Positions 28,856 to 43,652 of a stretch of 64,000 nucleotides of DNA are shown here, one piece after another. The notes below the pieces were generated by a model, which had not been told where the DNA came from, did not search any database, and saw only the letters and a list, made by a program, of their open reading frames with translations. Both the position numbers and the translations under genes were made by a program. Positions within the stretch are counted from its first letter, which is position 1. Each line of letters starts with the position of its first letter. Location: contig NZ_JAGSYI010000002.1 in assembly GCF_025685625.1 (NCBI RefSeq), forward strand, positions 1,736,001 to 1,800,000. The letters are read 5' to 3'. Origin of the DNA: Acidicapsa acidisoli. GTDB lineage: Bacteria; Acidobacteriota; Terriglobia; Terriglobales; Acidobacteriaceae.

Positions 28856-29069
28856 TGGAAACTCCCGTTCAGGGACTATACGAGATGGGCTGGGGTTCGG
28901 TTCGATCGGGACTATGAATCTTCGAGGAATCTTTGGGGAATCTTTGCGGAAGCTCGACGATTGCCTCCGTTTTGGCTCCCGCATAGTTTCAAATGTGGAG
29001 AGGCGGACGAGGTCAAGCTGATCCGCCGACGTTGGGAGATTGTATGCAGAGCAGGATGAGGTGGGTTCG

Positions 29070-30464
29070 GTGAGTCTGGCGGTTGTCATCATGGCGGCGG
29101 GTAAAGGAACGCGGCTGAAGTCGCGCCGGCCGAAGGTGCTGCACGAGATCGGAGGCAAGCCGCTGCTGGCGCATGTGATCGCGGCGGCGAGCAAGATCGT
29201 GCCAGCGGCGGATATTCATGTCGTTGTCGGGCATGAGGCTGAACGGGTGCAGACGGCGGTTGCTGGCACTAACGTCAATTTTGTATTGCAGGCAGAGCAG
29301 CTGGGTACCGGTCATGCGATTCAGTGTGCGCGTGAGGCGATTGCGGGTTATAACGACGTGCTGGTGCTTTCGGGGGATGTGCCGTTGATTCGGCCTGAGA
29401 CTCTGGAAATGCTGTTGGAGTACCACCGGCTGGGATCGGCAATGACGATTCTTACGGCGCTGCCTAAAGATCCGTTTGGATATGGCCGAATCGTGCGCCG
29501 CGAAAGTGAAAATGCCCTTGAAGTTGAAGCAATCGTGGAACAGAAGTTCCTGAGGTCGGAGCAGTTGAGAATTCCCGAGATCAACACTGGGATATATGTA
29601 TTTCAGACAAAGCCTCTTATCTCTCACTTGAAATGGCTAATCTCGAACGATGAGAACGGCGAATATTATCTGACTGATCTGGCTCGGATATTCGTTCGAG
29701 AAGGGGAACTTGTGACGGCCGTTGAGGCCGCAGATGCGGATGAGGTGCTGGGCGCGAATACGATTCCGGAGTTGGTTGCGCTGGATGCAAGTCTGCGCGC
29801 CAAAACGGCGCTGCGGCTGATGCTGCAGGGAGTCACGATTTTTCGCCCTGAAACTTGCGTGATCGACGCGGAGGTTGAGGTCGGGCCGGATACGGTGATT
29901 GAGCCGTACGTGCAACTGTTGGGGCGAACGAAAATCGGCTCCGATTGCATGATTCGTTCGAGCACGGTCATCGAAAACTCGGTTCTCGCCGATAACGTAC
30001 TTATTCGCCAGAGTTGCATCATTGCGGACTCTGAGATCGGCGGCGGGGCCAAGATCGGGCCGTTTGCCCATCTTCGGCCGGGAAGCGAGATTGGCGAGGA
30101 CGTGCATATCGGCAATTTCGTCGAGACGAAGAAAGCTAAACTCGGCAAAGGAGCCAAGGCCAGCCATTTGACGTATCTCGGAGATGCCGTGGTTGGAGCC
30201 GGTTCGAATATCGGCGCGGGTGTGATCACGTGCAACTATGACGGGGTGAATAAGCACACGACGACCATCGGCGAGGGAGTCTTTGTGGGCAGCGACTCGA
30301 CGCTGGTGGCTCCCATTCTGATCGGCGACGGAGCCTATATCGGAGCTGGGTCCTGCATCACGCGGGAGGTGCCTGCGGATGCGCTGGCTGTGGGCAGAAG
30401 CCGGCAGGTCACCAAAGACGGATGGGCTGCTGCAAGACGGGAACAGCGAGGAAAGCAGAGCTGA
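29070..30464 (+). CDS. glmU: Bifunctional UDP-GlcNAc pyrophosphorylase/GlcN-1-P acetyltransferase
   Basis: About 464 residues. N-terminal pyrophosphorylase: VIMAAGKGTRLKSRRPKVLH, then LSGDVPLI and NTGIYVF. C-terminal left-handed beta-helix acetyltransferase with hexapeptide repeats (IGPFAHLRPGSEIGEDVHIG) and NYDGVNKHTT with catalytic-loop features. Makes UDP-GlcNAc for peptidoglycan. No ATG is available; GTG at 29070 fits the family's N-terminus best, with GTG 29061 and TTG 29040 as alternatives. Confidence 0.94.
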   Translation: MSLAVVIMAAGKGTRLKSRRPKVLHEIGGKPLLAHVIAAASKIVPAADIHVVVGHEAERVQTAVAGTNVNFVLQAEQLGTGHAIQCAREAIAGYNDVLVLSGDVPLIRPETLEMLLEYHRLGSAMTILTALPKDPFGYGRIVRRESENALEVEAIVEQKFLRSEQLRIPEINTGIYVFQTKPLISHLKWLISNDENGEYYLTDLARIFVREGELVTAVEAADADEVLGANTIPELVALDASLRAKTALRLMLQGVTIFRPETCVIDAEVEVGPDTVIEPYVQLLGRTKIGSDCMIRSSTVIENSVLADNVLIRQSCIIADSEIGGGAKIGPFAHLRPGSEIGEDVHIGNFVETKKAKLGKGAKASHLTYLGDAVVGAGSNIGAGVITCNYDGVNKHTTTIGEGVFVGSDSTLVAPILIGDGAYIGAGSCITREVPADALAVGRSRQVTKDGWAAARREQRGKQS

Positions 30465-30735
30465 GGAGCCGCGATTCCGGTACAGATGCATTCGCCCAGG
30501 GAACGAAAAATGGTATGGTTCCGTTAGTAATGGGATGCGGGGGTTGAGAAATTTGATTTCGCCTCGTCATTTGCCTTTGAATATGGAATATGCAGGAAAG
30601 ATCTGGGGATTGTCCGAACGTGCCAGTTACCGAAAGTGCCGAAGGTCACCCCAATGGGCCAAAGTGCAGTTTCTACGGTGCGTATCTGCGTAATAATGGC
30701 AAACAGACGCTGGGATGCGGGTACGGGAGGAGCGT

Positions 30736-31842
30736 ATGGGGTCACCTGCAAGAATTCTGATCGTTGACGATGAGCCCCATGTGCGCGCCATGCTGGGCGC
30801 GACTCTGGAGCGGCAGAATTACGTCACTGTTCTGGCCGGCAGTAATTCAGAGGCTTTTGAACTGATCGATCGGCAGCACTTCGACCTCGTCCTGACGGAC
30901 ATGGTGATGCGGGACGGCAACGGAATCGGTCTGCTGGAGCGCCTTCACATCGATCAACCACAGACGCCGGTGGTCATGGTCACGGCGATCCAAGACATCA
31001 GCGTAGCCATCACGGCGATGCGCAAAGGCGCTTACGACTACCTTCTTAAACCCTTCGAACGCGACCAGTTACTGACCACCGTGCGGCGCGCGCTGGACCA
31101 TCGCAAGACGCTGCGCGAAAACGAAAGCTATCAGCAGAATCTCGAACAGATTGTGCAGGCCCGCACCGAGTTGCTGCACCAGGCTATCGTGGATCTGGAA
31201 CGGTCTTACGACATTACGCTGGAGGCTTTGGGTGACGCGCTGGATTTGAAGGACTCCGAAACGGAGGGTCACTCGAAGCGGGTGACTGCGTACACCATCG
31301 CCCTCGCTCGTGCGATGGGAATTGGTTCGGACGCAATCAAGGTGATCGCGCGCGGAGCCTTTTTGCATGACATTGGCAAGATGGCCATCCCGGACGCGAT
31401 TTTGCGCAAGCCCGGCAAACTCACGCTCGCGGAGCAGACGCTGATGCGGGAGCATTGTGAGCGCGGATATAACATCCTGCACAAGATTCCGTTTTTGAAC
31501 GAGGCTGCGGAAATCGTTTACGCCCATCAGGAGCATTACGACGGCAGCGGCTATCCCCGGGGTCTGCGCGGCAATGCCATTCCGATCGGAGCGAGGATCT
31601 TTGCGATCGCGGACACCCTGGATGCGATTACCAGCGACCGGCCCTACCGTGGAGCAAAGAGTTTTGACGTCGCGCGGTTGGAGATTCTGCGGTGCTCCGG
31701 AACTCAGTTTGATCCGTCGGTGGTTGAGGTTTTCCTCAAGATTCCAAATGAGCTTTGGGTTGAACTCAGGACGGAGATTACAGGAACAACCCCCGCATTT
31801 GCCGACCTGAATGCCGCCCAGGTCACTGCGCCTTCCCGGTAG
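30736..31842 (+). CDS. HD-GYP domain response regulator
   Basis: 368 residues. Receiver domain (~5-120: ILIVDDEPHV, phospho-Asp in LVLTDMVMRDG, Thr in MVTAIQD, Lys in LLKPFERD), a coiled-coil-like linker (~120-165), then HD-GYP (~170-345) with EGHSKRV, FLHDIGKMAIPD and the HQEHYDGSGYPRGL signature. Predicted c-di-GMP phosphodiesterase controlled by phosphorylation. Start at 30736 follows GGGAGGAG; an ATG seven codons earlier is less likely. The 271-bp gap to glmU holds no recognised feature. Confidence 0.93.
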   Translation: MGSPARILIVDDEPHVRAMLGATLERQNYVTVLAGSNSEAFELIDRQHFDLVLTDMVMRDGNGIGLLERLHIDQPQTPVVMVTAIQDISVAITAMRKGAYDYLLKPFERDQLLTTVRRALDHRKTLRENESYQQNLEQIVQARTELLHQAIVDLERSYDITLEALGDALDLKDSETEGHSKRVTAYTIALARAMGIGSDAIKVIARGAFLHDIGKMAIPDAILRKPGKLTLAEQTLMREHCERGYNILHKIPFLNEAAEIVYAHQEHYDGSGYPRGLRGNAIPIGARIFAIADTLDAITSDRPYRGAKSFDVARLEILRCSGTQFDPSVVEVFLKIPNELWVELRTEITGTTPAFADLNAAQVTAPSR

Positions 31843-31883
31843 ATTCCGGCCAAGCGGGAATTCTCTAGAGACAGGAGCCAGTC

Positions 31884-32162
31884 ATGCCAGCATTCTCCTC
31901 GGCGGAAATTGAGCAGGGCCTCGCGACACTTCCGGATTGGAAGCTGAACGATGGCAACCTGGTGAGGAATTTTTCGTTTACGGATTTTCGGGAAGCAATG
32001 AGCTTCGTCAACTCGGTTGCTGCGCTTGCGGAGCGGGCTGGACATCACCCGGATATCGACATCCGTTACAACAAGGTCAATCTGGCGTTGTCGAGCCACG
32101 ATGCCGGTGGTATCACTGAGCGGGACTTCTCGCTCGCCGCTGGGATCGACAAAATCCTTTAG
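31884..32162 (+). CDS. phhB: Pterin-4a-carbinolamine dehydratase
   Basis: 92 residues, standard length. The family signature is visible: FVNSVAALAERAGHHPDIDIRYN with the paired His, then VNLALSSHDAGGITERDFSLA. Recycles tetrahydrobiopterin cofactor for aromatic amino-acid hydroxylases, or acts as a pterin-linked helper in bacteria. An AGGAG motif precedes the ATG. No hydroxylase gene is adjacent. Confidence 0.93.
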   Translation: MPAFSSAEIEQGLATLPDWKLNDGNLVRNFSFTDFREAMSFVNSVAALAERAGHHPDIDIRYNKVNLALSSHDAGGITERDFSLAAGIDKIL

Positions 32163-32167
32163 GTACC

Positions 32168-32425
32168 TCAATCCTGCGATTCGAGCGGGGCGGTTTCGCG
32201 CTCAGCAGATTCACGGTCGGATTTCTCGAATTCGGGTTGCGGGTGATTTACAGAAACTATGGGATTCTGGAGTTTGGTGAGCGTTTTGCGATACCACCAA
32301 GCAACGGCCAATCCTCCTGCAATTGCCGAGGCTGCGGAGACGAACCCCAGGCCGAGAACCTTGGATACCTTCCTGGCGGAAGATATGTCCTGACGGTAAA
32401 TCTCATCATTACTATCGTTTGCCAA
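32168..32425 (-). CDS. Small single-span membrane protein
   Basis: 85 residues: charged N-terminus, one membrane helix (~26-46, LGFVSAASAIAGGLAVAWWY), then a hydrophilic Glu/Ser/Arg-rich tail. No family recognised. Convergent with phhB, 5 bp between the stops. Confidence 0.55.
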   Translation of the reverse strand: MANDSNDEIYRQDISSARKVSKVLGLGFVSAASAIAGGLAVAWWYRKTLTKLQNPIVSVNHPQPEFEKSDRESAERETAPLESQD

Positions 32426-32540
32426 TGTTCGTCTCCAAGGGCAAATACTGCCGGCGTTACCCTGTCAAGAAAGATTGTACGCGGCTGGAGCATCCAAAAA
32501 CTTGCCTGCTTTTGACCTCACTCCTGCAAATATTTTGATT

Positions 32541-32570
32541 TTGGTATTTGCTTTCTTTCAAATCTATAGT
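32541..32570 (+). promoter_or_regulatory. Candidate promoter of the leader RNA
   Basis: TTGGTA, 18 bp, TATAGT. Would start transcription near 32577, giving a ~150-nt leader before the PCYCGC gene. Confidence 0.5.
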
Positions 32571-32576
32571 AAGGTG

Positions 32577-32684
32577 TAGATATTGCAGTTGGAGATGGCA
32601 CTGAGTCTCCCATCTTCAGCGGCAAGTAAGTTGCGTCACTGGCCTCCCGGCACGAACAGAGAACCGTTCGTGCCGTCTTTTTTT
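32577..32684 (+). promoter_or_regulatory. Structured 5' leader with terminator (attenuator/riboswitch candidate)
   Basis: Between the promoter-like sequence and the PCYCGC gene start lies an RNA with a first hairpin (GGAGA/TCTCC, near 32591-32612), a short GCAA/TTGC hairpin, and a strong intrinsic terminator (10-bp stem 32648-32657 with 32666-32675 and a T-rich tract). GGA..GGC in the first part could instead pair with GCCTCC just before the terminator. This is the layout of transcription-attenuation leaders. The opening GGAGATGGCA resembles the start of fluoride riboswitches, but I could not find the required pseudoknot partner, so the class is left open. Confidence 0.45.
32648..32684 (+). 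terminator. Intrinsic terminator upstream of the PCYCGC gene
   Basis: Perfect 10-bp stem CGGCACGAAC/GTTCGTGCCG, 8-nt loop, followed by TCTTTTTTT. It sits 41 bp before the coding start, so it must be bypassed for expression of the downstream gene unless there is another promoter. Confidence 0.88.
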
Positions 32685-32725
32685 GTCTACCGTATGGCGC
32701 TAGAATGATGAGGCGAGGTTCGACG

Positions 32726-33178
32726 ATGAAAAGTTGGGGTTTTTCGCGCCTGGCTTTGGCGCTCCTGCTGGCTGGCGCGACGGCTATCAGTTACGCACAA
32801 TGGATGAATCCAGCCGACGATATTCCTGCATATCACCCGTCGGCGCCTCTCAAGGTTAGTTCGTTACCTCCAATTTTGAGCGGAGCCAAACTCACGGGCG
32901 AGAGTTTCCGGTATCCGTGGCAAGTACACGTTTACCAGGATGCCGCGAAGGTCTCAGCTGTGCTGTATCAGTTACCTTGCAATTGCCGATGTGACCGCTC
33001 CCTTGGCCATACCAGCCTGCGCAGCTGCTTCGAAGGACTGCACGGCACGGAGTGCTCAACCTGTGCGAAAGAGGGCTTCTTTGCGTATCAGCAGACCAAG
33101 CTCGGCAAGACGCCGGTCGAGATACGCGCCGCGATTGAACGCCATGAATACGAAAAGATCCCGCTTGAAAGTCAGTAA
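32726..33178 (+). CDS. PCYCGC/CYCXC-family exported protein
   Basis: 150 residues. Signal peptide (WGFSRLALALLLAGATAISYA). The mature protein carries the family cysteine cluster LPCNCRC (~residue 91), followed by HTSLRSCFEG, GTECSTCAKEG and a C-terminal helix KTPVEIRAAIERHEYEK. The family (PCYCGC motif) is of unknown function, probably metal- or redox-related at the cell surface. Start chosen at 32726 because of CGAGG seven bases upstream and the clean signal peptide; ATGs at 32705/32708 are possible. Expression is probably controlled by the leader terminator. Confidence 0.78.
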   Translation: MKSWGFSRLALALLLAGATAISYAQWMNPADDIPAYHPSAPLKVSSLPPILSGAKLTGESFRYPWQVHVYQDAAKVSAVLYQLPCNCRCDRSLGHTSLRSCFEGLHGTECSTCAKEGFFAYQQTKLGKTPVEIRAAIERHEYEKIPLESQ

Positions 33179-33281
33179 GCGACGGCAAGAGTTTGCCCAG
33201 GCGGCCGCAATCCGGGGGGAAAGAGCGTACAATTACGTATGCAGCGCGCGCCTTAGGGCCCGGCTGATGTCCTGCCCAAGT

Positions 33282-33631
33282 GGGGGCGTCACGGTTTCGA
33301 CGGGATTGCAAGCAGCAGAGAGGCATGCCGGGGTGTGGGCACCCGTAATCGCTTACAAAAACACAATTGCCAACGACAATCTGGCACTTGCTGCTTAATT
33401 AAATAGGCAGCCGTCCTCCTCATCTTTGCCTGTGGGCTGAGAGCGGGCGTCGCACAGCAGGCTGGTTGTTGCCGCTCGGTCCGTGTGGCAACAATAAGAT
33501 CATCGGACTAGTTTCCGGCGTTTCTTGTCCGTTCTGAGCGCTGGAAGCGAATTTTCTGAACTGGACTAAGCATGGAGTCTCTCGGCTGACTACGATTTCG
33601 GACGCGGGTTCGACTCCCGCCGCCTCCACCA
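33282..33631 (+). ncRNA. ssrA: Transfer-messenger RNA (tmRNA)
   Basis: Both tRNA-like ends are clear: 5' GGGGGCGTCACGGTTTCGAC and 3' GGACGCGGGTTCGACTCCCG followed by CCGCCTCCACCA, and the 7-bp acceptor stem pairs with one G-U. The tag reading frame starts at 33351 after GTAATC and encodes AYKNTIANDNLALAA with stop TAA at 33396-33398; the ANDNLALAA end is a canonical degradation tag. Length ~350 nt is normal. A TACAAT box at 33228 may be the -10 of its promoter. Its 3' end is the border of the accessory region, as is common where integrases target ssrA. Confidence 0.97.
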
Positions 33632-33869
33632 TTAAATTGTTTATTTTCAATAATTTACGCATAAATTCATTAAGACCTATCACGAACCGACGTCACCATC
33701 GCTAGTCGCTGTAATTTCATATACTTAGAGAAACAATAGAAAACAGTGCTGGTCCTTGTGATCAAATTTGTGACCGTTTTGTGACCAAACGGCTCATGGT
33801 ACCAAAAGCCTCCCGAAAATTTTGCCCCATTTCAGCCTTCCGGACACGTCCCACTGCCTTGTGAACTCG

Positions 33870-34031
33870 TTCGCCTTTACCCGCCACACTTCCGATTGCA
33901 AATACAAACACGACCGCCAGTACCGTCAGTGCAACTGCCCTAAGTGGGTCGAGGCTCGTGTAAACGGAGAACGCATCCGCAAGAGCGTTTCGAGCCGCAT
34001 CTGGGATGAGGCGGAGTTGTTCCGGCAAGGC
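33870..34031 (+). pseudogene. Tyrosine integrase N-terminal remnant
   Basis: A ~50-residue stretch (TRHTSDCKYKHDRQYRQCNC, then PKWVEARVNGERIRKSVSS and IWDEAELFRQ) matches the cysteine-containing N-terminal arm of phage-type integrases common in Acidobacteria. The core-binding and catalytic domains are missing: after LFRQ the frame loses similarity. It lies 240 bp beyond the tmRNA 3' end, in the position expected for an integrase that used ssrA as attachment site. The rest of the 33,632-34,519 interval holds no other gene, only element A and its tail. Confidence 0.65.
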
Positions 34032-34258
34032 TCGAAGATTTCGTCGCCCAGGGCCGCCAATTGCCTCCAGAACAGCCCGATCGTCTCGTCAAACTCTGAC
34101 CAGCACCTCCCCGGAACCGGTTCCGGCTATGGCAGCACAAGTCGTTTTACCTCGGAAACACTAGGCTGTCGGGTACGACACGTCTTCCAGGCGCTCAATG
34201 AGCACATTGGAGACAACGCGCTCATCGAGAGAGCCGAAACGGTTGAATCTGCGTTATT

Positions 34259-34292
34259 CATTTGTCCGGGTTGCCGGTTTTTCGACCACCTG
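34259..34292. repeat. 34-bp dyad element A (type 2)
   Basis: First copy of the dispersed family. It aligns ungapped with element H, 28.6 kb away, sharing the CCACCTG end and GCCGGTT core. Type 2 has GCCGGT at positions 15-20. It lies between the integrase remnant and the Gly-Gly/DUF4132 module. It is followed by a tail (34301-34336) that matches the tail of element C at 28 of 36 positions. Confidence 0.75.
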
Positions 34293-34519
34293 CCCAGAAC
34301 ACTGATCGACTTGAATAGATCAATGAGAGCGTTGCCTTGTTGGCAACCATGGAGAGCCTAATCATTCCTGCGTAATGGCCGACTCATCCCTATCGATTTC
34401 GCGACATGTCTTTGCGATAAACTGGATTCCAATTCCAGACGAACTTCGGGCCTGCCAATGCTCGGTCGATCCGCGGCCCTGTCTTTCGCATCGGTTTTGT
34501 GCTGAAGTGGGAGAAGCTC

Positions 34520-34909
34520 ATGGCGATCTTGATCTTCGACGCACCCCTTCAAGGCGAGCGGAAACCTGCCGATGGAATTCGGCTGGGCGCAGGTTTAGTG
34601 ACGCTGCGGGATTTGATCCGTGCCCGCCTCCAACAAGAGGTGGAACGCTATAACCAGGCACTTCCGGATGCGTTTCAGGGGTTGGTACAGCCGGAAGAAT
34701 CGGAGCAGATTCTGAACGGATTCCGGCTAAAGACTAAGCGGCCGCTCAATTGGGAAGTGCAATGCCGACGCGCTTGGTCGAGTTTCGAGAAGAACGGTTT
34801 TCTTGTGCTTGTCGATGGAAGGCAAGTTACGGAATTGGACGAGCGGCTAGATCTTAAAGAGAATTCGGAGATCGACTTCATCAAGCTGGTCCCGCTCGTC
34901 GGAGGATGA
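34520..34909 (+). CDS. Small protein with C-terminal Gly-Gly (possible beta-grasp/ubiquitin-like tail)
   Basis: 129 residues. No recognised domain in the N-terminal half. The C-terminal ~40 residues (FLVLVDGRQVTELDERLDLK, then SEIDFIKLVPLVGG) read like the last strands of a MoaD/ThiS-type beta-grasp fold and finish exactly in Gly-Gly at the stop codon, as in sulfur carriers and ubiquitin-like modifiers. This similarity is inferred from pattern only. Start at 34520 has GGGAG; the upstream frame to 34499 lacks it. The two Gly codons (GGAGGA) form the Shine-Dalgarno of the DUF4132 gene, which begins one base after the TGA, so the two are tightly coupled. Confidence 0.8.
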   Translation: MAILIFDAPLQGERKPADGIRLGAGLVTLRDLIRARLQQEVERYNQALPDAFQGLVQPEESEQILNGFRLKTKRPLNWEVQCRRAWSSFEKNGFLVLVDGRQVTELDERLDLKENSEIDFIKLVPLVGG

Positions 34910-34910
34910 A

Positions 34911-37412
34911 ATGGCGGTTGATCCTGAAGCGCTGCAGCGGGCCTTGCGTTCCCAATTTCCCGCGCCCGAAGTCTCCCCGAACTCAAGCGATTGGATGTTC
35001 GAACTGGTCAGCATCTTCGGATCCAATCCGTTCGTCAACCGGGAGCGAGATGTACTCAGGTTGGCGGAAGCGCCCGTGAGCCGGCTGAAAGCCGAGCCGT
35101 CGGAGGTGCGCGTAGGCGTCGTCTTTGAGGCGCTCAACGAGATCATCCATAGCCAGGCGTTTCATTTCAAGATCGTTTTGAAGATTGTTGCGGCTACTCT
35201 TCTGCGGAGCGGCGTGGAACTGAACTCTCTCGAGGCGGTGCGGTTGGTGGAGCTTGTCTCGAAGCCGCAGCTGCCGTTTCCTTTCAAAGCAATCCTATCG
35301 GCAATCGATTGTGTTCCCAGGACCCCAGCCCTGGTTACGGCGCTGTATCGGTTGCGCGGCTGCGTCACCCGATATCACGGCGAGCCTGAGATGAAGGAGA
35401 TCCACGAGCGAATCGACGTTCTTATCGGCGGGCCCAAGGAAAAACCTGTTACGCCCGCCGGCGCATGGAGTCGAATCGTTTTCGAGGAGGTCGCCACATT
35501 TGAAAAGAAGTTCGATTGGCATGCGCTTCTGCTTCATGCGCGATCACTCACGCAGAGCACAGCTTCGAAGAAATGGCAGAGCAAAGCCGTGAATCTGGCC
35601 TCGCGAATCGGACCGGCAGAGGTTCTGGACGCGGCTCGGCGTTGGCTGGCGTTGGGGCCTACCCCAGGCGAAAAGATGATCCAGACTTCCGAGGCGGAGG
35701 CGGATTACCAGAAGGGATTCATTTGGGTGCTTGGCACGCTCGGCGACGTTTCCATCGCGCCGGATATCGCGGACTTCGCATTCGGCTGTTTTCGGAAGAT
35801 ACCGATGATCGGCGCCGTTTCGCATCGCGTGGGCAATGCGTGCGTGAATGCGCTGGCCGCCATGCCGGGTCTCGCGGGTGTGTCGCAATTGAGCCGCCTG
35901 GCAGGGAGGGTCAAATATGACGTGGCCCGCAGACTCATCGAAAAGGCGATGAACGAGGCTGCCGAGCGCAATCAGGTATCCCGCGACGATCTAGAGGCAA
36001 TGGCGGTTCCGACATTCGGACTGGATGCGGCGGGCGGCCGAATTGAGCAGGCTGGGGATTGCGAAGCGAGGCTCGCAATTGGCCGCGATGGGGCATCGCT
36101 AACCTGGAGCCGCGAAGGCAAAACCTTGAAGAGCGTGCCGGCGAGCGTCAAAGAGGAGCACGCCGAACTGCTCAAGGACTTGAACCGTAGCGTCAAGGAG
36201 CTCGACGGACAGATCGCGGCGCAGCGGTTCCGGCTTGAGCGCCAGTTGATTTCGCATGGCACTTGTTCTTACGAGCGGTGGAAGCAGTGGTATCTCGATC
36301 ATCCGCTGGTCTCGCACTTCGCGGCTCGCCTTATCTGGGAGTTCGAGGACGGCGGTGAAACGCGAACCGCCATTCTCTGGCAAGGCGGTCTCGTGGATTG
36401 GTCGAGCCATGCTATCCAGCCATCTCTTGAGGCACGCGTGCGGCTGTGGCATCCGATCCGGTCCGACGTCCAGACGATCCTGAACTGGCGTTGCTGGCTG
36501 GAGGATCATCAGGTGCGCCAGCCGTTCAAGCAGGCGCATCGCGAGGTCTACTTGCTGACCGACGCCGAACGCAAAACGGAGACCTACTCCAATCGTTTCG
36601 CGTCGCACGTCATTCGCCAGCACCAGTTCGTTTCTCTTTGCCGTGAGCGAGGCTGGAAGTTCAAGGCGATGGGTAGCTGGGACTCGCACAATACACCGTC
36701 GCTCGAGCTCAGCCAGTACAACCTAGTCGCGAAGTTCGATGTGGAGTTTCCTGAGGCGGAGGATGGAGACGACGAATCCACCACCGCGCACGGCGTGTAT
36801 CTGGCCATTGGCACGGGCCGCGTTGAATTCGTTCCGCTCAAGGTTGCCGAGCCGAATAACGCGGAAAACGGACCCTTCGGAATACGGTTGCCGAGAAAGT
36901 TTCTTGGTCTTCGTCGAGCCGCGGCCCTTCGCCTCGAGGAGATCCCTGTGCTGGTCTTCTCCGAGGTGATGCGTGACTGCGACCTGTTCGTTGGTGTGAC
37001 AAGCATCGGTGCAGACCCAGCCTGGAATCGTGATCACGCGGACGATCCGCATTCACCCTACTGGCAGCAATTCGCATTTGGCGATTTGAACACTGCGTCA
37101 GAGAACCGGAGAACGGTTCTTGAAAGTCTGCTGCCGAAACTGGCCATTCGAGACCGGTGCCGGCTGGATGGCCGATTCCTCGTGGTTCGCGGGGACCTCC
37201 ACGAGTACCGCATCCACATCGGCAGCGCCAATGTCCTCATTGAGCCGGGCAGCCGCTATCTGTGCATCGTGCACGGTCCAGGCGATACGGCGGCGAATCT
37301 GCCCCTGCCGTTTGAGGGCGACCGCATCCTTGGCTTGGTTCTCAGCAAGGCGCTTCTGCTGATGAGCGATACGAAAATCAAGGACCCCACCATCGCGCGT
37401 CAGTTGTCTTAG
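34911..37412 (+). CDS. DUF4132 domain protein
   Basis: 833 residues, cytoplasmic. The first ~400 residues are mainly helical, HEAT-like. The C-terminal ~330 residues match DUF4132, the domain also found in E. coli MolR: RQPFKQAHREVYLLTDAE, YSNRFASHVIRQHQF, VLVFSEVMRDCDLFVG, RFLVVRGDLHEYRIHIG and the closing ILGLVLSKALLLMSD then IKDPTIARQLS. Biochemical function unknown. GGAGG stands five bases before the ATG, within the last codons of the Gly-Gly gene. The pair is flanked by dyad elements A and B/C, so it is probably one transferable module. Confidence 0.88.
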   Translation: MAVDPEALQRALRSQFPAPEVSPNSSDWMFELVSIFGSNPFVNRERDVLRLAEAPVSRLKAEPSEVRVGVVFEALNEIIHSQAFHFKIVLKIVAATLLRSGVELNSLEAVRLVELVSKPQLPFPFKAILSAIDCVPRTPALVTALYRLRGCVTRYHGEPEMKEIHERIDVLIGGPKEKPVTPAGAWSRIVFEEVATFEKKFDWHALLLHARSLTQSTASKKWQSKAVNLASRIGPAEVLDAARRWLALGPTPGEKMIQTSEAEADYQKGFIWVLGTLGDVSIAPDIADFAFGCFRKIPMIGAVSHRVGNACVNALAAMPGLAGVSQLSRLAGRVKYDVARRLIEKAMNEAAERNQVSRDDLEAMAVPTFGLDAAGGRIEQAGDCEARLAIGRDGASLTWSREGKTLKSVPASVKEEHAELLKDLNRSVKELDGQIAAQRFRLERQLISHGTCSYERWKQWYLDHPLVSHFAARLIWEFEDGGETRTAILWQGGLVDWSSHAIQPSLEARVRLWHPIRSDVQTILNWRCWLEDHQVRQPFKQAHREVYLLTDAERKTETYSNRFASHVIRQHQFVSLCRERGWKFKAMGSWDSHNTPSLELSQYNLVAKFDVEFPEAEDGDDESTTAHGVYLAIGTGRVEFVPLKVAEPNNAENGPFGIRLPRKFLGLRRAAALRLEEIPVLVFSEVMRDCDLFVGVTSIGADPAWNRDHADDPHSPYWQQFAFGDLNTASENRRTVLESLLPKLAIRDRCRLDGRFLVVRGDLHEYRIHIGSANVLIEPGSRYLCIVHGPGDTAANLPLPFEGDRILGLVLSKALLLMSDTKIKDPTIARQLS

Positions 37413-37498
37413 TTAGCCAGGCTCCGCCCCTTCTCCGGCATGGCGAGTTCGCGCAAAAATGGTGTACCTGGACGGCTGGCTGCAGTATCTGACTGTAC

Positions 37499-37524
37499 TG
37501 AGTTGGCCGTAAATCGCCAACTCA
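37499..37524. repeat. Inverted repeat after the DUF4132 gene
   Basis: Perfect 9-bp arms TGAGTTGGC/GCCAACTCA with an 8-nt loop, 87 bp after the DUF4132 stop. No T-run, so not a classical terminator. It lies 24 bp before element B and may be part of the same repeat unit. Confidence 0.5.
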
Positions 37525-37547
37525 CCCATCAATAAATGAGATCAAGC

Positions 37548-37589
37548 CAGTTTGCCGAATAGTCGGCAAGTCGGCTTTGCGTCCAGTTG
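37548..37589. repeat. Dyad element B (type 1, with central 8-bp duplication)
   Basis: CAGTTTGCCGAATAGTCGGC, then AAGTCGGC, then TTTGCGTCCAGTTG. It matches the 34-bp family if the extra 8 bp in the centre are removed; the extra bases partly repeat the core AGTCGGC. First member of a type 1-type 2 pair with element C. Confidence 0.7.
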
Positions 37590-37611
37590 GTTTTGCGGGA
37601 AAAGCCCGGGC

Positions 37612-37645
37612 CTAATCGCCGCTAAGCCGGTTATACGGCAACTTG
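37612..37645. repeat. 34-bp dyad element C (type 2)
   Basis: Core AAGCCGGTTATACGG with CAACTTG end. It begins 56 bp after the aligned start of B. Tail at 37654-37689 resembles the tail after element A. The remaining gap to 37,804 shows no gene. Confidence 0.75.
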
Positions 37646-37804
37646 CCGAAGACACAGATCGATCTGAATAGGTCAATCAGCGCGTCGTCGTGTTGTCGCC
37701 ATTCAAGCTTTTGCAATACGAGATGATTGCAGAGTTTGATTGGCAGCTGATTTTTGATTCAAGATCGATTCATTTAGGCAAACCCACTATGGTCTTGCAG
37801 GTAT

Positions 37805-38023
37805 TCATTCAGCGAGTGCAGCGTGCATTGAAATCCAGTAATATCGCCGCCAACAAAAGACACAGCGGACTGGACGAAGGGCAAACATGCTAAGAAGACC
37901 ATCGAACGGCCGCAACTCAGCCTGTTTGAATGAGACGGAGTTGCAACGAGGACATTCTCGTCGTCGCCAAAGTAATTGCGGTGCCGAGTTCAGCCTTTGC
38001 CTGATAGTTTCATTCACGCTCAT
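37805..38023 (-). CDS. Small zinc-ribbon protein
   Basis: 72 residues with a CPRC ... CVFC pair separated by 24 residues: RECPRCNSVSFKQAELRPFD then RPVRCVFCWRRYYW. The spacing and the basic aromatic end are typical of small acidobacterial zinc-ribbon proteins. The ATG overlaps the GH130 stop by 4 nt (ATGA), making it the third gene of the GT4-GH130 operon. An open frame on the other strand here is a shadow. Function unknown. Confidence 0.72.
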   Translation of the reverse strand: MSVNETIRQRLNSAPQLLWRRRECPRCNSVSFKQAELRPFDGLLSMFALRPVRCVFCWRRYYWISMHAALAE

Positions 38024-39081
38024 TCACTCCGGGTTTCGTGTTGATTTGAAAAGTGGCTGGTGCTTGAGGATTCAGGGTCTGAGTTCGATTCCAACCACGA
38101 GAGCAAGCGACGAATACTGCCGGTGGCCAGAGCTACAGAAGAATCCGCTGCTCCGTAGTACAGGTAGATCGTGTCTCCATCTACACCGATGGTTTGTCCG
38201 CAAGGGAAGACAACATCGTTCACGTCTCCGCTTCGCTCATAAGGGGCTTCCGGTCCAAAGATCCAGGAATCTCCGCGTTGCAGGCAGATATCGGGGCGTT
38301 CCAGATCAAAAAGCGCTAGCCCGAGACGATAGATACTTCCGGAAGCCGTTTGCCTCACGCCGTGATAGATGGTGAGCCATCCCTTGGATGTTTCGATCGG
38401 TGGAGAGCACAGTCCAATCTTGTTTGCATCCCACCATCCGCCCCGCCGCGCTTCGAGGATGATCTTGTGGCTCCCCCAATGCCTCAAATCCCGCGAGTAG
38501 GAGATCCACATATGAGCGCCCAGGGTCGTAACTGGGCGATGAATCAGCGCCCAGCTGCCGTTAATTCTTCTCGGCAAAAGCGCTGCGTCCTTGTCCTCCG
38601 GCGGCATGATCACACCGTAGCGATTAAATGTCTTGAAGTCCTTTGTCAGAGCCAGGGATACCCCGGGACCACCGCGCGCGAACGATGTATAGGCGACCGC
38701 ATACTGATCGAGCTCCGGGACAAAAGTGATGCGGGGGTCTTCAATGCCCCATAGCTCTTCCGGGTACCCCTGAGGACTTGCTGGAAGTGTCGGCTCAGGA
38801 TCGATGCGCCACCCATCAATTCCATTGCTGGAGCGGGCAGCGCATAGATGGGAAAGTCCACGCCGGTCTTCCACGCGGCAAAGAAGTAGAGTGTCTCCAT
38901 CCGCCAGGCGAACGGCGGCCGCGTTGAACACGCTATTGATCTGGTAAGGCCAATCTTCCCGGCTGAGGATAGGGTTTCCGGGATGCCGCTCAAAAAGTGG
39001 AGCCTCGACTGAGGCTTTCCGTACCAGCTGTTCGGGAACGGATGAATCGGGCAGTAATGTTGCTGAAGAATCCCTATTCAA
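38020..39081 (-). CDS. GH130-type glycoside phosphorylase/hydrolase
   Basis: 353-residue five-bladed beta-propeller protein. HPGNPILSREDWPYQINSVFN opening and the family's catalytic-Asp region WGIEDPRITF (~residue 115) are visible, followed by HRPVTTLGAHMWISYSRDLR and GLCSPPIETSKGWLTIYHGV. GH130 enzymes phosphorolyse or hydrolyse beta-mannosides. No signal peptide. It overlaps the end of the GT4 gene by 4 nt and the start of the zinc-ribbon gene by 4 nt. Exact glycan unknown. Confidence 0.9.
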   Translation of the reverse strand: MNRDSSATLLPDSSVPEQLVRKASVEAPLFERHPGNPILSREDWPYQINSVFNAAAVRLADGDTLLLCRVEDRRGLSHLCAARSSNGIDGWRIDPEPTLPASPQGYPEELWGIEDPRITFVPELDQYAVAYTSFARGGPGVSLALTKDFKTFNRYGVIMPPEDKDAALLPRRINGSWALIHRPVTTLGAHMWISYSRDLRHWGSHKIILEARRGGWWDANKIGLCSPPIETSKGWLTIYHGVRQTASGSIYRLGLALFDLERPDICLQRGDSWIFGPEAPYERSGDVNDVVFPCGQTIGVDGDTIYLYYGAADSSVALATGSIRRLLSWLESNSDPESSSTSHFSNQHETRSE

Positions 39082-41378
39082 GAAGACACACTCATTTCCT
39101 GGTGCAATTCATTCATGTTTGCAGCTTCCGCAGCCTGCATATCGAGTAGAGCCATCAGGAACGAAATGGTAGACTCCGCGCCCTGGTTTTCATTCACCCG
39201 GTCAGGGTGAAGGCCATCACGGCACCCACCTGTAATCGGGTCATACAACGGCGCAAGCAGATCATTCTTGCCAAGGAACCAGCGGAAGGCCCGTCGTGCT
39301 TCCGTTTGCCAATGGCTGTCTCTGGTGAGACGGTAGACTTCCTGGCAAGCGGAAACCGTGGCGCATGCTTCCACGGGCTGCTGATCGAAACGAGCTTTTT
39401 CTGCTCCCTGTGCAAAAAATCCATTGGAGCCGATGGGAACGAAGGTCTCTCCGTCTCCCCCGTGCTGTGCGGCCACCAGCCATTCCAGCGACTCAATGCC
39501 AGCCTCGACCATTCGCTTGTTGTTGCTGCGCCATCCAGTCAAAATGAGCGCCTGTGGCAGCCTGGCGTTCGAATACGACAAGCTCTCTTCGAACCAATGC
39601 CAGCTATCGGAGCGGCAGCGGTCGTATATGTCCAGCAGTCGATTGGCAAGCGTGTTGCGAATACCCTGCATCAGGCGGTCGCCTGGAAACCAGTCGAGGT
39701 ATGCCTGCAATCCTAGAATACTGAAAGCCCATGCACGCGGACTGCTGAAGGTGAGTGCCGCCGGTACCGCAGCTTCAAACAGCCTGCCCGCTGCACCGCG
39801 CAACCCTGCATCCTGCGAACGCCCAAGTACGGAGCCCAGGGCCCACAATGCACGTCCATGACTGTCTTCCGAACCAATATTCTCCAGCCATTGCCTGTCA
39901 TAGCCGAGAAAGTTGCGAAACCGTCCACTCTCGGAATGAAAGGCCAGCCAAAGGAAGGCCAGGTAGCGGCGTGAGAGATTCGGATGCTCCCCATTGCCTC
40001 CATATATGAAGTTCTCATCAAGCTGGGTGGACACCATGAGAGCACGTGCGTTGTCATCGGTCGTGTATCCCTCGCGTGTGTTCGGCACCGAGAAGATCGC
40101 ATGCTGCAGGATGCCTGTGTCGTCCGTCAGGGCCAGTAGATGGCCCGTATTCAAAGCAGGCAGACAATCCGTTCCATCCATCAGGCCTGTGGCCGCATCC
40201 AGCGATTGCGCCGGCCTTGGCTGCAGGGATCGCTCGAAGCGCGCGCGCTGAAAGCTCTCCATGTACGCATGCGCCGTCTTTGGCCAGGTCGTTCCGCGAG
40301 AGTGCAGATAGGCGCGCTTGCGCATGGCATGACGTTCTGCATCGTTCTCAAGCAGCGCGAGAATTGCTTCTGCAATAGAATCTGAACGCTCAAAGGGAAC
40401 AATCACACCGCGCTTCTCCGCAAGCAGTTCCTTGGCATGCCAATACGGCGTCGAGATAATGGCCTTTCCTGCGCCAAAGGCAATCGCGAGCGTTCCGGAA
40501 ACCACCTGCGCCTCCTGCTGGTAAGGCGTAATGTATATGTCTGCTGCGCCTACATGCTCCACAAGCTCTTCGTTGCTGATGAACCGATTGTTGAAGATCA
40601 GGTGATCGGAAACTCCCAGCCGCGCAGCTAATGATTGCAATTCTTCGCGGTATCGTTCGCCGTCCCTCTTCCGGATATGAGGGTGCGTTACACCCGAGAC
40701 GATATACACCACATTCGGATGCCGGGCCAGCACTGCGGGCAAAGCGCGAATCACGTTCTCTATGCCTTTGTTTGGAGACAACAAGCCAAAGGTCAAAAGA
40801 ACCGACTTGCCTTCCGTGCCAAACTTGTCCTTGAAGTAATTCGGATCCATAAACGGCAAATCGGGCACGCCATGTGGAATGACGTCGATCTTGCCGCTGG
40901 GAATTGCATACACTTCGCGAAGCAGTCGAGCCGCCAGCTCACTCATCACAACCAGACGATCCGAAAGTTGCGCGATCTCTTCGAGGACTGCGCGTTGATT
41001 GGCATTGGGCTCGCGTAACACGGTATGCAGTGTCGTGACAATCGGCATCTTCAATCTGCGCAGCATGGTCAGAATATGAAGCCCGGCGACCCCTCCGTAG
41101 ATGCCGTACTCATGCTGCAAGCACACGAGGTCGTTCCCGTTGAAGTTGAGAAAATCAGCAGCTCGTTCATAAGACGCCAAATCATCCTGCGTAATCTCCA
41201 GGCGTACCTGCTCCGGGTATTCATAACTCGAATCGGGATCATTCACCGGAATCGCAAACAACCGCGCTGAACCATATTCAACCGCAAGAGCATTACACAG
41301 ATCTGTCGTGAATGTGGCGATGCCGCACTCCCGAGGTAGATAATTTCCGACGAATGCGATGCGTGTTGGCAAAGACAA
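39078..41378 (-). CDS. GT4 glycosyltransferase fused to an alpha/alpha-barrel domain
   Basis: About 766 residues. N-terminal GT-B glycosyltransferase (1-~390): TRIAFVGNYLPRECGIATFT, GLLSPNKGIENVIRALPAVL and AFGAGKAIISTPYWHAKELL with EKRGVIVPF. The C-terminal half (~420-750) is a helical-repeat domain (GYTTDDNARALMVS; WFEESLSYSNARLPQALI; EACATVSACQEVYRL), similar to alpha/alpha-toroid glycoside-active proteins. No ATG fits; TTG 41378 has AAGGAG six bases upstream. It begins the GT4-GH130-zinc-ribbon operon. A glycan-making plus glycan-cleaving pair suggests synthesis or turnover of a mannose-type oligosaccharide. Confidence 0.87.
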   Translation of the reverse strand: MSLPTRIAFVGNYLPRECGIATFTTDLCNALAVEYGSARLFAIPVNDPDSSYEYPEQVRLEITQDDLASYERAADFLNFNGNDLVCLQHEYGIYGGVAGLHILTMLRRLKMPIVTTLHTVLREPNANQRAVLEEIAQLSDRLVVMSELAARLLREVYAIPSGKIDVIPHGVPDLPFMDPNYFKDKFGTEGKSVLLTFGLLSPNKGIENVIRALPAVLARHPNVVYIVSGVTHPHIRKRDGERYREELQSLAARLGVSDHLIFNNRFISNEELVEHVGAADIYITPYQQEAQVVSGTLAIAFGAGKAIISTPYWHAKELLAEKRGVIVPFERSDSIAEAILALLENDAERHAMRKRAYLHSRGTTWPKTAHAYMESFQRARFERSLQPRPAQSLDAATGLMDGTDCLPALNTGHLLALTDDTGILQHAIFSVPNTREGYTTDDNARALMVSTQLDENFIYGGNGEHPNLSRRYLAFLWLAFHSESGRFRNFLGYDRQWLENIGSEDSHGRALWALGSVLGRSQDAGLRGAAGRLFEAAVPAALTFSSPRAWAFSILGLQAYLDWFPGDRLMQGIRNTLANRLLDIYDRCRSDSWHWFEESLSYSNARLPQALILTGWRSNNKRMVEAGIESLEWLVAAQHGGDGETFVPIGSNGFFAQGAEKARFDQQPVEACATVSACQEVYRLTRDSHWQTEARRAFRWFLGKNDLLAPLYDPITGGCRDGLHPDRVNENQGAESTISFLMALLDMQAAEAANMNELHQEMSVSS

Positions 41379-41467
41379 GTTACTCTCCTTCACATGACAG
41401 GCTGACGGATAACGCGTCGATCCCAACCGCCATTCGGAGGCTCGGAATGGGATACCATGCGGCATCG

Positions 41468-41486
41468 AGTCTCCAGATTGGAGACT
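41468..41486 (-). repeat. Inverted repeat upstream of the GT4 gene
   Basis: Perfect 8-bp arms AGTCTCCA/TGGAGACT with 3-nt loop, 90 bp before the GT4 start. Possible operator or leader hairpin. Nothing else is seen in 41,379-41,804. Confidence 0.4.
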
Positions 41487-41804
41487 GATTGCAAACTAAT
41501 CTCTTCGGTTGTGTACTTTGGAGGACGCTCGTCTGAAGCGATGCCTGGTGTGCCGGAGGCGAGGAAGGAAAAGCGGACTACTATTCCTTGAGGATACACC
41601 CACTTGAGATCTTTTGCAGGCAACGATTGGGAAACGTCCCGCAGCAAGGCGATGAGTAGCTGCTTTTACGTTGTGATCACTTGTATGACGGTCGATCGGC
41701 TTTGACAGATCGCGAAAGTATTGGCAGCCAAGCTCAGGAGGATTTCTCTGGACTATCAATTGACGCTAGATCGCCAATGCGCTCACTGACAATGAAATGC
41801 GAGC

Positions 41805-41838
41805 CACATGGCCGATTAGTCGCCTTCTCGTCAACTTG
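41805..41838. repeat. 34-bp dyad element D1 (type 1)
   Basis: CACATGGCCGATTAGTCGCC followed by TTCTCGTCAACTTG. Type 1 core AGTCGC. First of a pair with D2, start-to-start 68 bp, between the GT4 operon and the small membrane-protein gene. Confidence 0.75.
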
Positions 41839-41872
41839 AACTTGAGTTGGCTGCCTTCGCTGGTAAAGCGGT

Positions 41873-41906
41873 CAAATCTACGCGAAGCCGGTTATACGCC
41901 CACATG
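41873..41906. repeat. 34-bp dyad element D2 (type 2)
   Basis: Right part AAGCCGGTTATACGCCCACATG is nearly identical to that of elements C and H. The left arm (CAAATCTACG) is the least conserved of the family. Confidence 0.72.
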
Positions 41907-41969
41907 GATACTTTCTGTATTGCCCGTGACTCGGAGTAATCGAGGTAATAATGGTGCAAGAGGACGAGA

Positions 41970-42443
41970 ATGGGACGGCGGCATTTCCCTGCAAATGGTG
42001 AAATCGAGATGGTTTTGCTCGCTCTCCAAGTACTTCAGGTTCTCTTTCTCTGGGTTCACGACTGGATTCCCCTTGGACGTCTCAACGATGTCGCAGCGGT
42101 ACGCAGCCAGGATACGACACGCCGTCTCGTCACTGTAACTCTCATTCAAGGCGTACCGCGGACCATCGGGCTGTGCTTTAGCCTGTTGCACTTTAGACAA
42201 CCTTATCCGGACTGGCTTTACGACTGGCTCGTGATTAGCTATGGCCTGCTCTTGATTGGGCAAATCCGCGCCTGGTGGATACCTTATCTTTTCCGACCGG
42301 AACCGAAGCGAGCTGCTCGCTATCAAATCATGTTCGGCAAAACGCATTCCTTCTTGCCGGTGCGCAATGGAATGGTCCCAAACACTGCGCATATCCTGCT
42401 TCATCTGGCGACCGCCGCCACCTTGATCGTTCTTCTGAGGTGA
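41970..42443 (+). CDS. Hypothetical membrane protein
   Basis: 157 residues with about four hydrophobic segments (VLLALQVLQVLFLWVHDWIP; LVTVTLIQGVPRTIGLCFSL; WLYDWLVISYGLLLIGQIRA; a C-terminal TAHILLHLATAATLIVLL). No family recognised. The ATG at 41970 has AGAGGA upstream; a start at 42009 directly before the first helix is an alternative. It lies just after elements D1/D2. The overlapping 263-codon minus-strand frame is a shadow. The 309 bp after it carry no supported gene. Confidence 0.62.
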   Translation: MGRRHFPANGEIEMVLLALQVLQVLFLWVHDWIPLGRLNDVAAVRSQDTTRRLVTVTLIQGVPRTIGLCFSLLHFRQPYPDWLYDWLVISYGLLLIGQIRAWWIPYLFRPEPKRAARYQIMFGKTHSFLPVRNGMVPNTAHILLHLATAATLIVLLR

Positions 42444-42752
42444 GGAGACGGCAATCAGTCCACGATCGAAGCTCCCGATGTCGCGGTCCAAAGCAAATAC
42501 GGTGGAACCACCATGTTGCGCGTGGGACTTCCCTATATTGCCGTTGTTTGAGCGGCGGAAAGCCACTTGTACGAGTCCCTTGTATCGATTAGCTTTCGCC
42601 GACAAGAGCCATCCAACTCGCCAAGTGATTCGAAAATACAGAGGTGTATCGAAAGAGACAGCTTTCTCTAAAGGCAGATGCAACGGTTAGTTGCGCACCC
42701 GCGCTGCAGCGATCCTTCATTGAAGCGGTCAATGCTGAAACGACGTGGAAGC

Positions 42753-43433
42753 ATGCGGCCCCTGCTCTTGATTCTCCACATTCTCGCTGGCACCGTCGGC
42801 TTGCTGTCCGGCACATTCGCGATTGCTGTCCGCAAAGGCAGCCGCCTCCATCGCGCCTCAGGAAACATCTTCACCGTCGCTATGATTACCCTGGCCTCAA
42901 GCGCCCTCTGTCTCGCCATCATGAAGTCGCAACACGGCAACATCATCGGCAGCATCATCACCTTCTACATGGTCAGCACGGCGTGGCTCGCTGGTCGCGG
43001 CCGAGGCATAGGCCGGCTTGACCTCGCCGCACTTCTCGTCGGCACCTGCGGGGCCGCCGCCATCATCATGCTCGGCGTCTGGACCATCCACCACCCAGAC
43101 AAGAACGCCCCCGCTGCTATGTGCTTTTTCATGGCGGCCGTCCTCCTGGTCGCCGCCGCAGGAGACATCCGCATGCTTGCCTGCGGTGGCATCTCCGACA
43201 GAGGGCGAACTACGCGTCATTTATGGCGGATGTGCTTTGGACTCTTCATTGCAACAGGATCTTTCTTCCTTGGCCAGCAACAGGTCTTTCCCGCTTTCCT
43301 GCGCGGCTCCATCTTCCTTACGATCCTCGCCGTTCTCCCATTCCCCTTGATGATCTATTGGCTCTTTCGCGTCCGCTTCGGCAAGGCTTATAGAATCCAA
43401 TCACAGGCCCATCCCACTCCAATTTTTCCTTGA
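42753..43433 (+). CDS. DUF2306-like membrane protein
   Basis: About 226 residues with six to seven hydrophobic helices. The opening RPLLLILHILAGTVGLLSGT then KGSRLHRASGNIF matches the heme/copper-less DUF2306-type membrane family, where a His in the first helix and RLHRxxG are typical. Later helices: LLVGTCGAAAIIMLGVWTIH and IFLTILAVLPFPLMIYWLF. Function unknown. Start uncertain: ATGs at 42753, 42732 and 42678 are in frame and none has a strong ribosome site. Confidence 0.68.
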   Translation: MRPLLLILHILAGTVGLLSGTFAIAVRKGSRLHRASGNIFTVAMITLASSALCLAIMKSQHGNIIGSIITFYMVSTAWLAGRGRGIGRLDLAALLVGTCGAAAIIMLGVWTIHHPDKNAPAAMCFFMAAVLLVAAAGDIRMLACGGISDRGRTTRHLWRMCFGLFIATGSFFLGQQQVFPAFLRGSIFLTILAVLPFPLMIYWLFRVRFGKAYRIQSQAHPTPIFP

Positions 43434-43565
43434 AGTCGTTCGCTCGCGTTCCTTTCGAATTGAAGGGGAAATTGATCAAAGCGATTGTCACCGCTCGATG
43501 CGAGGGACCGGAGGAATTTGCGGGAGAATCATTGATTGGGGCGTGACCTGAATCGCTTCCGCTAT

Positions 43566-43578
43566 GCCGACTTATGAG
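43566..43578 (+). repeat. 13-bp direct repeat, left of the CPBP gene
   Basis: GCCGACTTATGAG, repeated exactly at 44597-44609, flanking the CPBP protease gene. The left copy with its neighbours (CTATGCCGACTTATGAGCAT) faintly resembles the type 2 dyad element. Confidence 0.5.
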
Positions 43579-43652
43579 CATCCATCAGGCGTATGCTGTG
43601 TGTAGTGCGGCGGAATTAGTGGCCTTCGCGATTCGCTTCCGAGGAGGCAAGG

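Follow-up and report, generated by a model that had tools for sequence, protein, structure and literature searches.

What does a DUF4132 protein do with a small protein that ends in Gly-Gly and is encoded immediately upstream? The question is raised by two genes at positions 34520–37412 of the window, i.e., the whole stretch of 64,000 nucleotides of Acidicapsa acidisoli DNA analyzed here (Acidobacteriota; contig NZ_JAGSYI010000002.1). An original prediction, made from the letters alone, had suggested a ubiquitin-like two-gene system. Here, we propose that the small protein is a ubiquitin-like protein (Ubl) activated by an activating enzyme (E1), and that its C-terminus is either transferred to Cys785 of the DUF4132 protein, a new kind of partner, or docks there. 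The probability of this reading is put at roughly 0.5. The features concerned are as follows.

34520–34909, forward strand: Ubl gene, 129 residues, predicted β-grasp fold and Gly-Gly terminus (473 relatives, alignments)
34901–34906, forward strand: C-terminal Gly-Gly codons GGA GGA, forming GGAGG, a possible Shine–Dalgarno sequence of the following gene
34911–37412, forward strand: DUF4132 partner protein, 833 residues; a DUF4132 gene lies downstream on the same strand in 73 of 80 loci
34974–36008, forward strand: N-terminal helical-repeat (HEAT/ARM-like) part, residues about 22–366 (VIA-align Z reaches 9.4, which is middling for a repeat)
36117–36656, forward strand: DUF4132 domain (PF13569), residues 403–582 (Pfam E-value 5.6e-50)
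37101–37406, forward strand: DUF7737 domain (PF24879), residues 731–832 (Pfam; Escherichia coli YehI and a Sinorhizobium WGR-DUF4132 protein have no match)
37263–37265, forward strand: Cys785 (TGC), the sole invariant Cys in 45 aligned DUF4132 proteins

The Ubl open reading frame (ORF) runs from an ATG at 34520 to a TGA at 34907–34909, and its product ends in FIKLVPLVGG, as had been claimed for a 129-residue protein that stops exactly after Gly-Gly; an alternative GTG start at 34499 would give a Ubl of 136 residues. Because the Ubl is translated with Gly-Gly already exposed, a processing protease would not be needed. No Pfam family matched the Ubl at E-values up to 10. The NCBIfam Urm1 model NF053661 aligned with residues 91–121 at 15.1 bits, below its cut-off of 70; among 48 Ubl members, it matched four (E-value 0.02 or worse), and the Urm1 model PF09138 matched one (0.062). 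The MoaD and ThiS models of Pfam and NCBIfam gave no match to the window Ubl or to the 48 members among the families listed (E-values up to 1). Sequence searches for solved relatives returned chance-level matches for the window Ubl and none for the DUF4132 protein or the Ubl profile.

The structure of the Ubl was predicted with AlphaFold2 from an alignment of 46 sequences. The model has strands at residues 2–9, 15–21, 94–98, 101–103, 109–112, and 117–122, a helix at 29–47, and a helical insert (60–64 and 78–90), in the order β-β-α-[helical insert]-β-β-β. Residues 125–129 form a floppy tail with a predicted local distance difference test (pLDDT) score under 50. The 50 matches listed by Foldseek were chiefly MoaD, Urm1, ubiquitin, and further ubiquitin-like proteins. 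In VIA-align, the model was matched to the human MoaD homologue MOCS2A (5mpo_A) with a Z of 8.1 (79 aligned, 3.2 Å) and to ubiquitin (1ubq) with a Z of 6.7 (73 aligned, 2.4 Å); a Z of that size is middling when taken alone, and Z 5 was reached by 569 of 998 chains. The β-grasp assignment is made because the topology, the C-terminal Gly-Gly, and the partners agree. The small protein is thus predicted to be a β-grasp Ubl, in line with the MoaD/ThiS-like strand pattern pointed out in the original prediction, and it is almost certainly a Ubl with a functional Gly-Gly.

The pairing of the Ubl with DUF4132 was confirmed in more than one locus and is conserved. A contig scan found 473 Ubl relatives, of which the best 80 loci were kept for pairing counts. 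Their titles include Acidobacteria, Armatimonadetes, Verrucomicrobia, Uabimicrobium and Phycisphaerae (Planctomycetota), Streptomyces and other Actinomycetota, Bacteroidota, cyanobacteria, and one Anaerolineales, and the pair is present in at least eight phyla. Nonomuraea and Novosphingobium also have it; the ORFs of their records (L004 and L008, and L005, respectively), which lack gene annotation, were read by script. In the window, the DUF4132 ATG at 34911 follows the Ubl stop codon after one base, and in 68 of the 73 loci with a downstream DUF4132 gene on the same strand the spacing is −8 to +20 bases. Four loci (L012, at a contig end, L045, L048, and L063) have no DUF4132 after the Ubl, and all four genomes have DUF7737 elsewhere; in L087, the Ubl is divergent from its DUF4132. 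Some genomes hold more than one DUF7737 protein. The distribution is patchy and rare. The Ubl was found in 2 of 297 sampled genomes of the window's phylum and DUF7737 in the same two; one of them is the window's own, so that only one independent genome attests the co-occurrence. In other samples, centered on genomes known beforehand to carry DUF7737, this domain was present in 9/296 (Bacteroidota), 3/159, 6/244, 9/196 (overlapping the Bacteroidota sample), and 1/36 genomes. Among 14 control genomes, DUF4132 was found in one (E. coli) and DUF7737 in none.

Two forms of the pair can be distinguished: class I, as in the window, and class II, in which a diverged Ubl accompanies a DUF5724-DUF4132-DUF7737 protein. 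Of the 80 Ubls, 78 have their stop codon directly after GG, one is truncated at a contig end, and the frame of one continues to GGIR. The GG-independent scan pattern is present in only 3 of the 80 loci, and because of this bias towards GG the count of 78 shows that nothing follows GG, not that GG is conserved. Conservation is indicated by class I Ubls found without the GG criterion, all nine of which end in GG (L004, L005, and L114 via protein searches; L095, L096, L097, L103, L108, and L110 via DUF7737). As a background, 86 of 2090 ORFs of 100–200 residues in the 80 loci have a GG terminus, the Ubls themselves counted in. The GGIR frame, a class I Ubl in L015 (9563–10381), may reflect either a genuine extension or an error in the assembly.

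Class II provides the evidence that connects the Ubl tail with the partner. By hhalign, the class II Ubls of Deinococcus radiodurans (ending LAGG) and Bacteroides (ending LSGRLW) match the class I Ubl profile with E-values of 2.9e-13 and 2.4e-8, respectively. Gly-Gly and Cys785 (window numbering) are kept in four Deinococcus records and in one genome each of the Actinomycetota and cyanobacterial samples. Cys785 is absent from nine Bacteroidota class II partners, eight of which stand beside Ubls ending in G-[SRT]-[YLI]-W; no Ubl was found for the ninth (L102). The terminal Trp of this G-x-[YLI]-W motif is invariant in the eight Ubls (L007, L098, L099, L100, L101, L118, L119, and L120). The expectation that Ubls beside DUF4132 keep Gly-Gly is accordingly correct for class I (9/9) and fails for these eight. 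With the predicted fold and the class I termini, neither of the two outcomes named in advance as refuting the original prediction was obtained, and the prediction is supported. The specificity of the loss was analyzed at the C-terminal-half positions that are at least 95% conserved in the alignment of 45 DUF4132 proteins (A4) and kept in at least five of six Gly-Gly class II proteins (n = 51). Six Bacteroidota class II proteins, five beside a non-Gly-Gly Ubl and one (L102) without a Ubl found, retain 49 of these positions in at least one member; A552 and C785 are retained in none. Over 95 partners, 84 combine GG with Cys, one combines GGIR with Cys, eight have a non-GG Ubl and no Cys, and the remaining two (Acetobacter and L102) have neither an adjacent Ubl nor Cys. 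No such coupling to Gly-Gly is seen for the conserved lysines K540 and K813. Judged from these alignments, there is a specific co-loss of Ubl Gly-Gly and partner Cys785 in one clade, which suggests that the Ubl tail works with one cysteine of the DUF4132 partner. A very divergent DUF7737 match in L113 (3077–5173; E-value 1e-9) has no Cys and no Gly-Gly ORF upstream.

The same data bear on a trivial origin of the tail, i.e., that Gly-Gly is merely a by-product of the Shine–Dalgarno sequence of the next gene (translational coupling). In the window, GGAGGA does stand just before the DUF4132 ATG, and the claim that the two codons double as its Shine–Dalgarno sequence is acceptable there. It does not extend to the family: only 23 of 78 relatives have Gly-Gly codons that spell GGAGG, the commonest pair being GGT GGC (32/78). 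Since GGAGG is uncommon, coupling does not explain Gly-Gly, and this origin was rejected on the codon counts as highly improbable. The loss of Gly-Gly together with Cys785 in class II also opposes it, as does, weakly, the presence of Gly-Gly in 11 loci without a DUF4132 start measured within 30 bases, loci that were almost all found by a GG pattern.

Experimental context is available for a class II pair of D. radiodurans, from two papers (PMC8533742 and PMC9650054). In the D. radiodurans locus (L093), a thioredoxin gene lies upstream of the Ubl and DUF4132 downstream, and the DdrO operator sequence given for DRA0165 in PMC8533742 matches positions 1552–1571 exactly, ahead of the Ubl start at 1634. 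From the operator position and this gene context, the pair is most likely DR_A0165–DR_A0166. Similar motifs precede the pairs of Deinococcus psychrotolerans (one mismatch; equal matches in 5 of 200 shuffles) and Deinococcus ficus (two mismatches; 8 of 200). According to PMC8533742, DdrO depletion upregulates the DRA0165–DRA0166 operon, and mitomycin C raises the DRA0166 protein in an IrrE-dependent manner. In PMC9650054, DR_A0165 was studied as the peptide SEP068184, which is raised by gamma rays and H2O2, whose deletion gives higher survival under H2O2, and which binds the thioredoxin DR_A0164; a common set of 157 proteins co-purified with each of the four tagged forms, carrying N- and C-terminal tags (lysis buffer with 1 mM dithiothreitol). 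Its published fold prediction is MoaD-like, naming 5MPO and SAMP1 (PMC9650054). That paper reports no operator and describes DR_A0165 as a Deinococcus-only small peptide, against which stand the Ubl relatives in many phyla and the operator found before the Deinococcus Ubl; the word "ubiquitin" is missing from its main text. On this identification, the Deinococcus operon is part of the DNA-damage regulon. The two papers give the nearest experimental context, DNA damage and oxidative stress (PMC8533742, PMC9650054), for the earlier idea of a defense or stress role, of which the defense half found no support; PADLOC, searched for known defense models, matches neither the Ubl nor the DUF4132 protein.

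If the Ubl is activated, an E1 is required in cis or in trans. Among the ten ORFs around the pair (27575–44510), Pfam detected no E1, conjugating enzyme (E2), or JAB, as had been stated, and also no MoxR, vWA, or SWIM. In six Bacteroidota loci (L037 of Flavobacterium orientale, L044, L050, L068, L070, and L084), a third gene directly follows DUF4132, with which it overlaps by 1–4 bases, and encodes 232–237 residues. Two of the six products were assigned to the ThiF family by Pfam (E-values 2.9e-69 for L037 and 9.6e-67 for L070), and for three of them the best NCBIfam matches were MoeB and ThiF, below the model cut-offs. Residues at positions equivalent to the MoeB nucleotide site and to the conserved Cys of MoeB/ThiF are kept in these proteins, whereas the MoeB-type CxxC pairs are not. 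The view that activation would need a partner in trans or a new mechanism thus suits the window and not the six relatives that encode an E1 themselves. Three ThiF-family proteins are encoded elsewhere in the genome from which the window comes. L089 is a ThiF-rhodanese (MoeB-rhodanese) protein and would be the natural in-trans E1 candidate for the window pair. L090 (contig C4, 1318–3266) is a fusion of JAB and ThiF next to a Prok-E2_E gene; this looks like a canonical bacterial Ubl-conjugation locus of its own. L091 (contig C1, 934–2460) has 508 residues and matches only ThiF in Pfam; its N-terminal part appears JAB-like by eye. E1 activation of the Ubl is considered highly probable.

In a rival reading, the Ubl is a sulfur carrier whose Gly-Gly thiocarboxylate would supply sulfur for a reaction that DUF4132 carries out, with Cys785 forming a persulfide or acyl-disulfide. 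MoaD is among the closest folds (Foldseek and VIA-align; also predicted for DR_A0165 in PMC9650054), the host-genome candidate combines MoeB with rhodanese, the flavobacterial E1 is MoeB/ThiF-like, and DR_A0165 binds a thioredoxin (DR_A0164, same source). The clustering of 38 loci showed no MoaE, ThiG, or thiolation partner that recurs, where only some neighbors were profile-searched, and the predicted helical repeat in the N-terminal half of the partner would suit a scaffold. We regard the sulfur carrier as unlikely, at about one chance in four.

Here, we propose the following mechanism for the E1-activated Ubl with its DUF4132 partner. An E1 of the MoeB/ThiF/MoeZ type, supplied by the third gene in some Bacteroidota and in trans elsewhere, would adenylate the C-terminal glycine of the Ubl. 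The activated C-terminus would then move onto, or dock at, the DUF7737 residue Cys785, a candidate catalytic Cys with a putative E2/HECT-like thioester role. The helical repeats of the DUF4132 protein may serve to bind a substrate. In Bacteroidota class II, where Gly-Gly and Cys are gone, the terminal Trp may hold a noncovalent Ubl–partner complex. Tentatively, the Ubl may be transferred to other proteins. An equally tentative fuller form would be that DUF4132-DUF7737 is a new Cys-dependent Ubl transferase (E2 and ligase, E3, in one helical-repeat protein) that receives its dedicated Ubl from an E1 of MoeB type and, in bacteria of many phyla, attaches it to proteins in DNA-damage or oxidative stress, one lineage having become noncovalent. 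The exchange of Gly-Gly for G-x-[YLI]-W, along with the loss of Cys, would also be expected of an ATG12–ATG5-like arrangement, in which DUF4132 is the sole partner of the Ubl, bound covalently or noncovalently, the complex is the working unit, and Bacteroidota class II represents its noncovalent version. The one-to-one pairing in most loci favors such a complex; the several DUF7737 proteins in some genomes suit a shared modifier equally, and a stable conjugate is not known. This arrangement is judged rather improbable, somewhat more so than the sulfur carrier.

Several points weigh against passage of an activated Ubl to Cys785. The confidence of the Ubl model is moderate (mean pLDDT 73.8, predicted template modeling score 0.69), and Foldseek gave nothing below an E-value of 0.001 (best 0.019). 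The structure search around Cys785 was uninformative, with one domain filling the match list of the whole-model search. A search with the L037 E1 protein found no further such gene in the 80 loci, leaving an adjacent E1 in only 6 of 80. For the Ubls of L039 and L060, the other two of the seven loci without DUF4132 downstream on the same strand, no DUF7737 was found in the searched genome. Cys-bearing partners without an adjacent same-strand Ubl occur in L008, L107, L109, and L112 and as second copies in L020 and L073, and hence Cys does not require adjacency; for four of the six (L008, L107, L020, and L073), a Ubl is present at another place in the genome or locus. Two changes of the Cys suffice in the tree, and no significance is therefore claimed from the 95-protein table; one of the two is Acetobacter, on a very long branch and without an adjacent Ubl, so that the joint change of Gly-Gly and Cys is seen in one clade only. 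N- and C-tagged forms of DR_A0165 share their partners (PMC9650054), so these contacts can do without a free Gly-Gly, which speaks against their being Gly-Gly conjugates. A conjugate or thioester at Cys785 is a prediction, and the odds for a covalent step are taken to be even.

The helical-repeat part of the partner was assigned on a model with a pLDDT of 86.4, for which the whole-model fold search returned helical repeats, and the C-terminal half of this model is of mixed structure; no WGR domain was found in the window DUF4132 protein by Pfam at E-values up to 10. To our knowledge, no chemistry has been assigned to DUF4132, the domain of MolR/YehI.

In the Urm1–Uba4 and archaeal SAMP–UbaA systems, the Ubl is activated by a MoeB-like E1, and there is no dedicated E2. 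The present pair resembles them in the predicted β-grasp Ubl with Gly-Gly, the MoeB/ThiF-type E1 in some operons, and the weak Urm1 matches, but differs in the 129-residue window Ubl with a helical insert that falls below family cut-offs and in the dedicated DUF4132 partner with a Gly-Gly-coupled Cys. It shares the predicted fold, the C-terminal Gly-Gly, and the E1 type with MoaD–MoaE and ThiS–ThiG, whereas its partner is a DUF4132 protein of 833 (class I) or about 1650 residues (class II), not MoaE or ThiG. The logic of Ubl plus E1 is also that of bacterial Ubl-conjugation operons (E1 + E2 + JAB; CBASS Cap2/Cap3), unlike which E2 and JAB are absent among the ten window neighbors and the host JAB-E1 and Prok-E2_E genes lie elsewhere. 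The DUF4132 domain is common to MolR/YehI (WGR-DUF4132 with MoxR, vWA, and SWIM genes), although the two MolR-type examples (E. coli and Sinorhizobium) lack DUF7737 and no Gly-Gly Ubl was seen adjoining them. None of the present results points to molybdate metabolism, to which MolR was historically tied, although no test was aimed at it. DR_A0165–DR_A0166 of D. radiodurans is the same pair in class II form with Gly-Gly and Cys kept, differing in the added DUF5724 of DR_A0166.

Among the open-access papers searched, three mention DUF4132, none combines it with "ubiquitin-like", and none mentions DUF5724. By word search, the 2006 survey of prokaryotic Ubls (PMC1779556) lacks the words MolR and WGR, and the 2020 conflict-system paper (PMC7159879) lacks YehI and WGR. 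As far as these searches go, the kind of system, bacterial ubiquitin-like, is known, and the Ubl family, the DUF4132/DUF7737 partner, and the coupling and loss of Gly-Gly and Cys are new. Together with the Deinococcus papers, the results suggest that a ubiquitin-like pathway, induced in Deinococcus by DNA damage, has been overlooked. DUF4132 gains a concrete biochemical hypothesis, and a widespread Ubl family that none of the searched Pfam and NCBIfam models names is added. The residue pair of Ubl Gly-Gly and Cys785 and the DR_A0165–DR_A0166 operon, already linked to the DNA-damage response, offer testable handles, and class II may mirror in bacteria how ATG12 lost its covalent linkage.

Pfam gives ordinary assignments to the ten neighboring ORFs, among them amidohydrolase, GlmU-like, response regulator-HD, pterin dehydratase, glycoside hydrolase 130, glycosyltransferase, and Rce1-like families. 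Neighbors were clustered in 38 loci, excluding 42 marked Streptomycetes, by comparing unannotated clusters; the only clusters to recur in three or more loci were the E1, additional DUF4132 copies, one other protein (membrane-like by eye), and an antisense artefact. The simple longest-ORF caller produces antisense artefacts at high GC and could miss Streptomyces operon partners. A protein adjacent to L045, taken for SWIM by eye, proved to be an ATP-dependent DNA ligase by Pfam. A phage link was rejected, with no viral Ubl relative among 21 pattern matches and no phage record with a DUF4132 protein. A tmRNA gene lies just upstream of the pair (33282–33631), a possible island site, and its 3′ end is not repeated within the window. 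The ORF at 33822–34361 recalls the N-terminus of a tyrosine integrase, but Pfam found nothing in it. Downstream, positions 37553–62920 contain short imperfect repeats (37 bases, five copies; 21 bases, four copies) with GCCGAATAGTCGGC-like palindromic cores.

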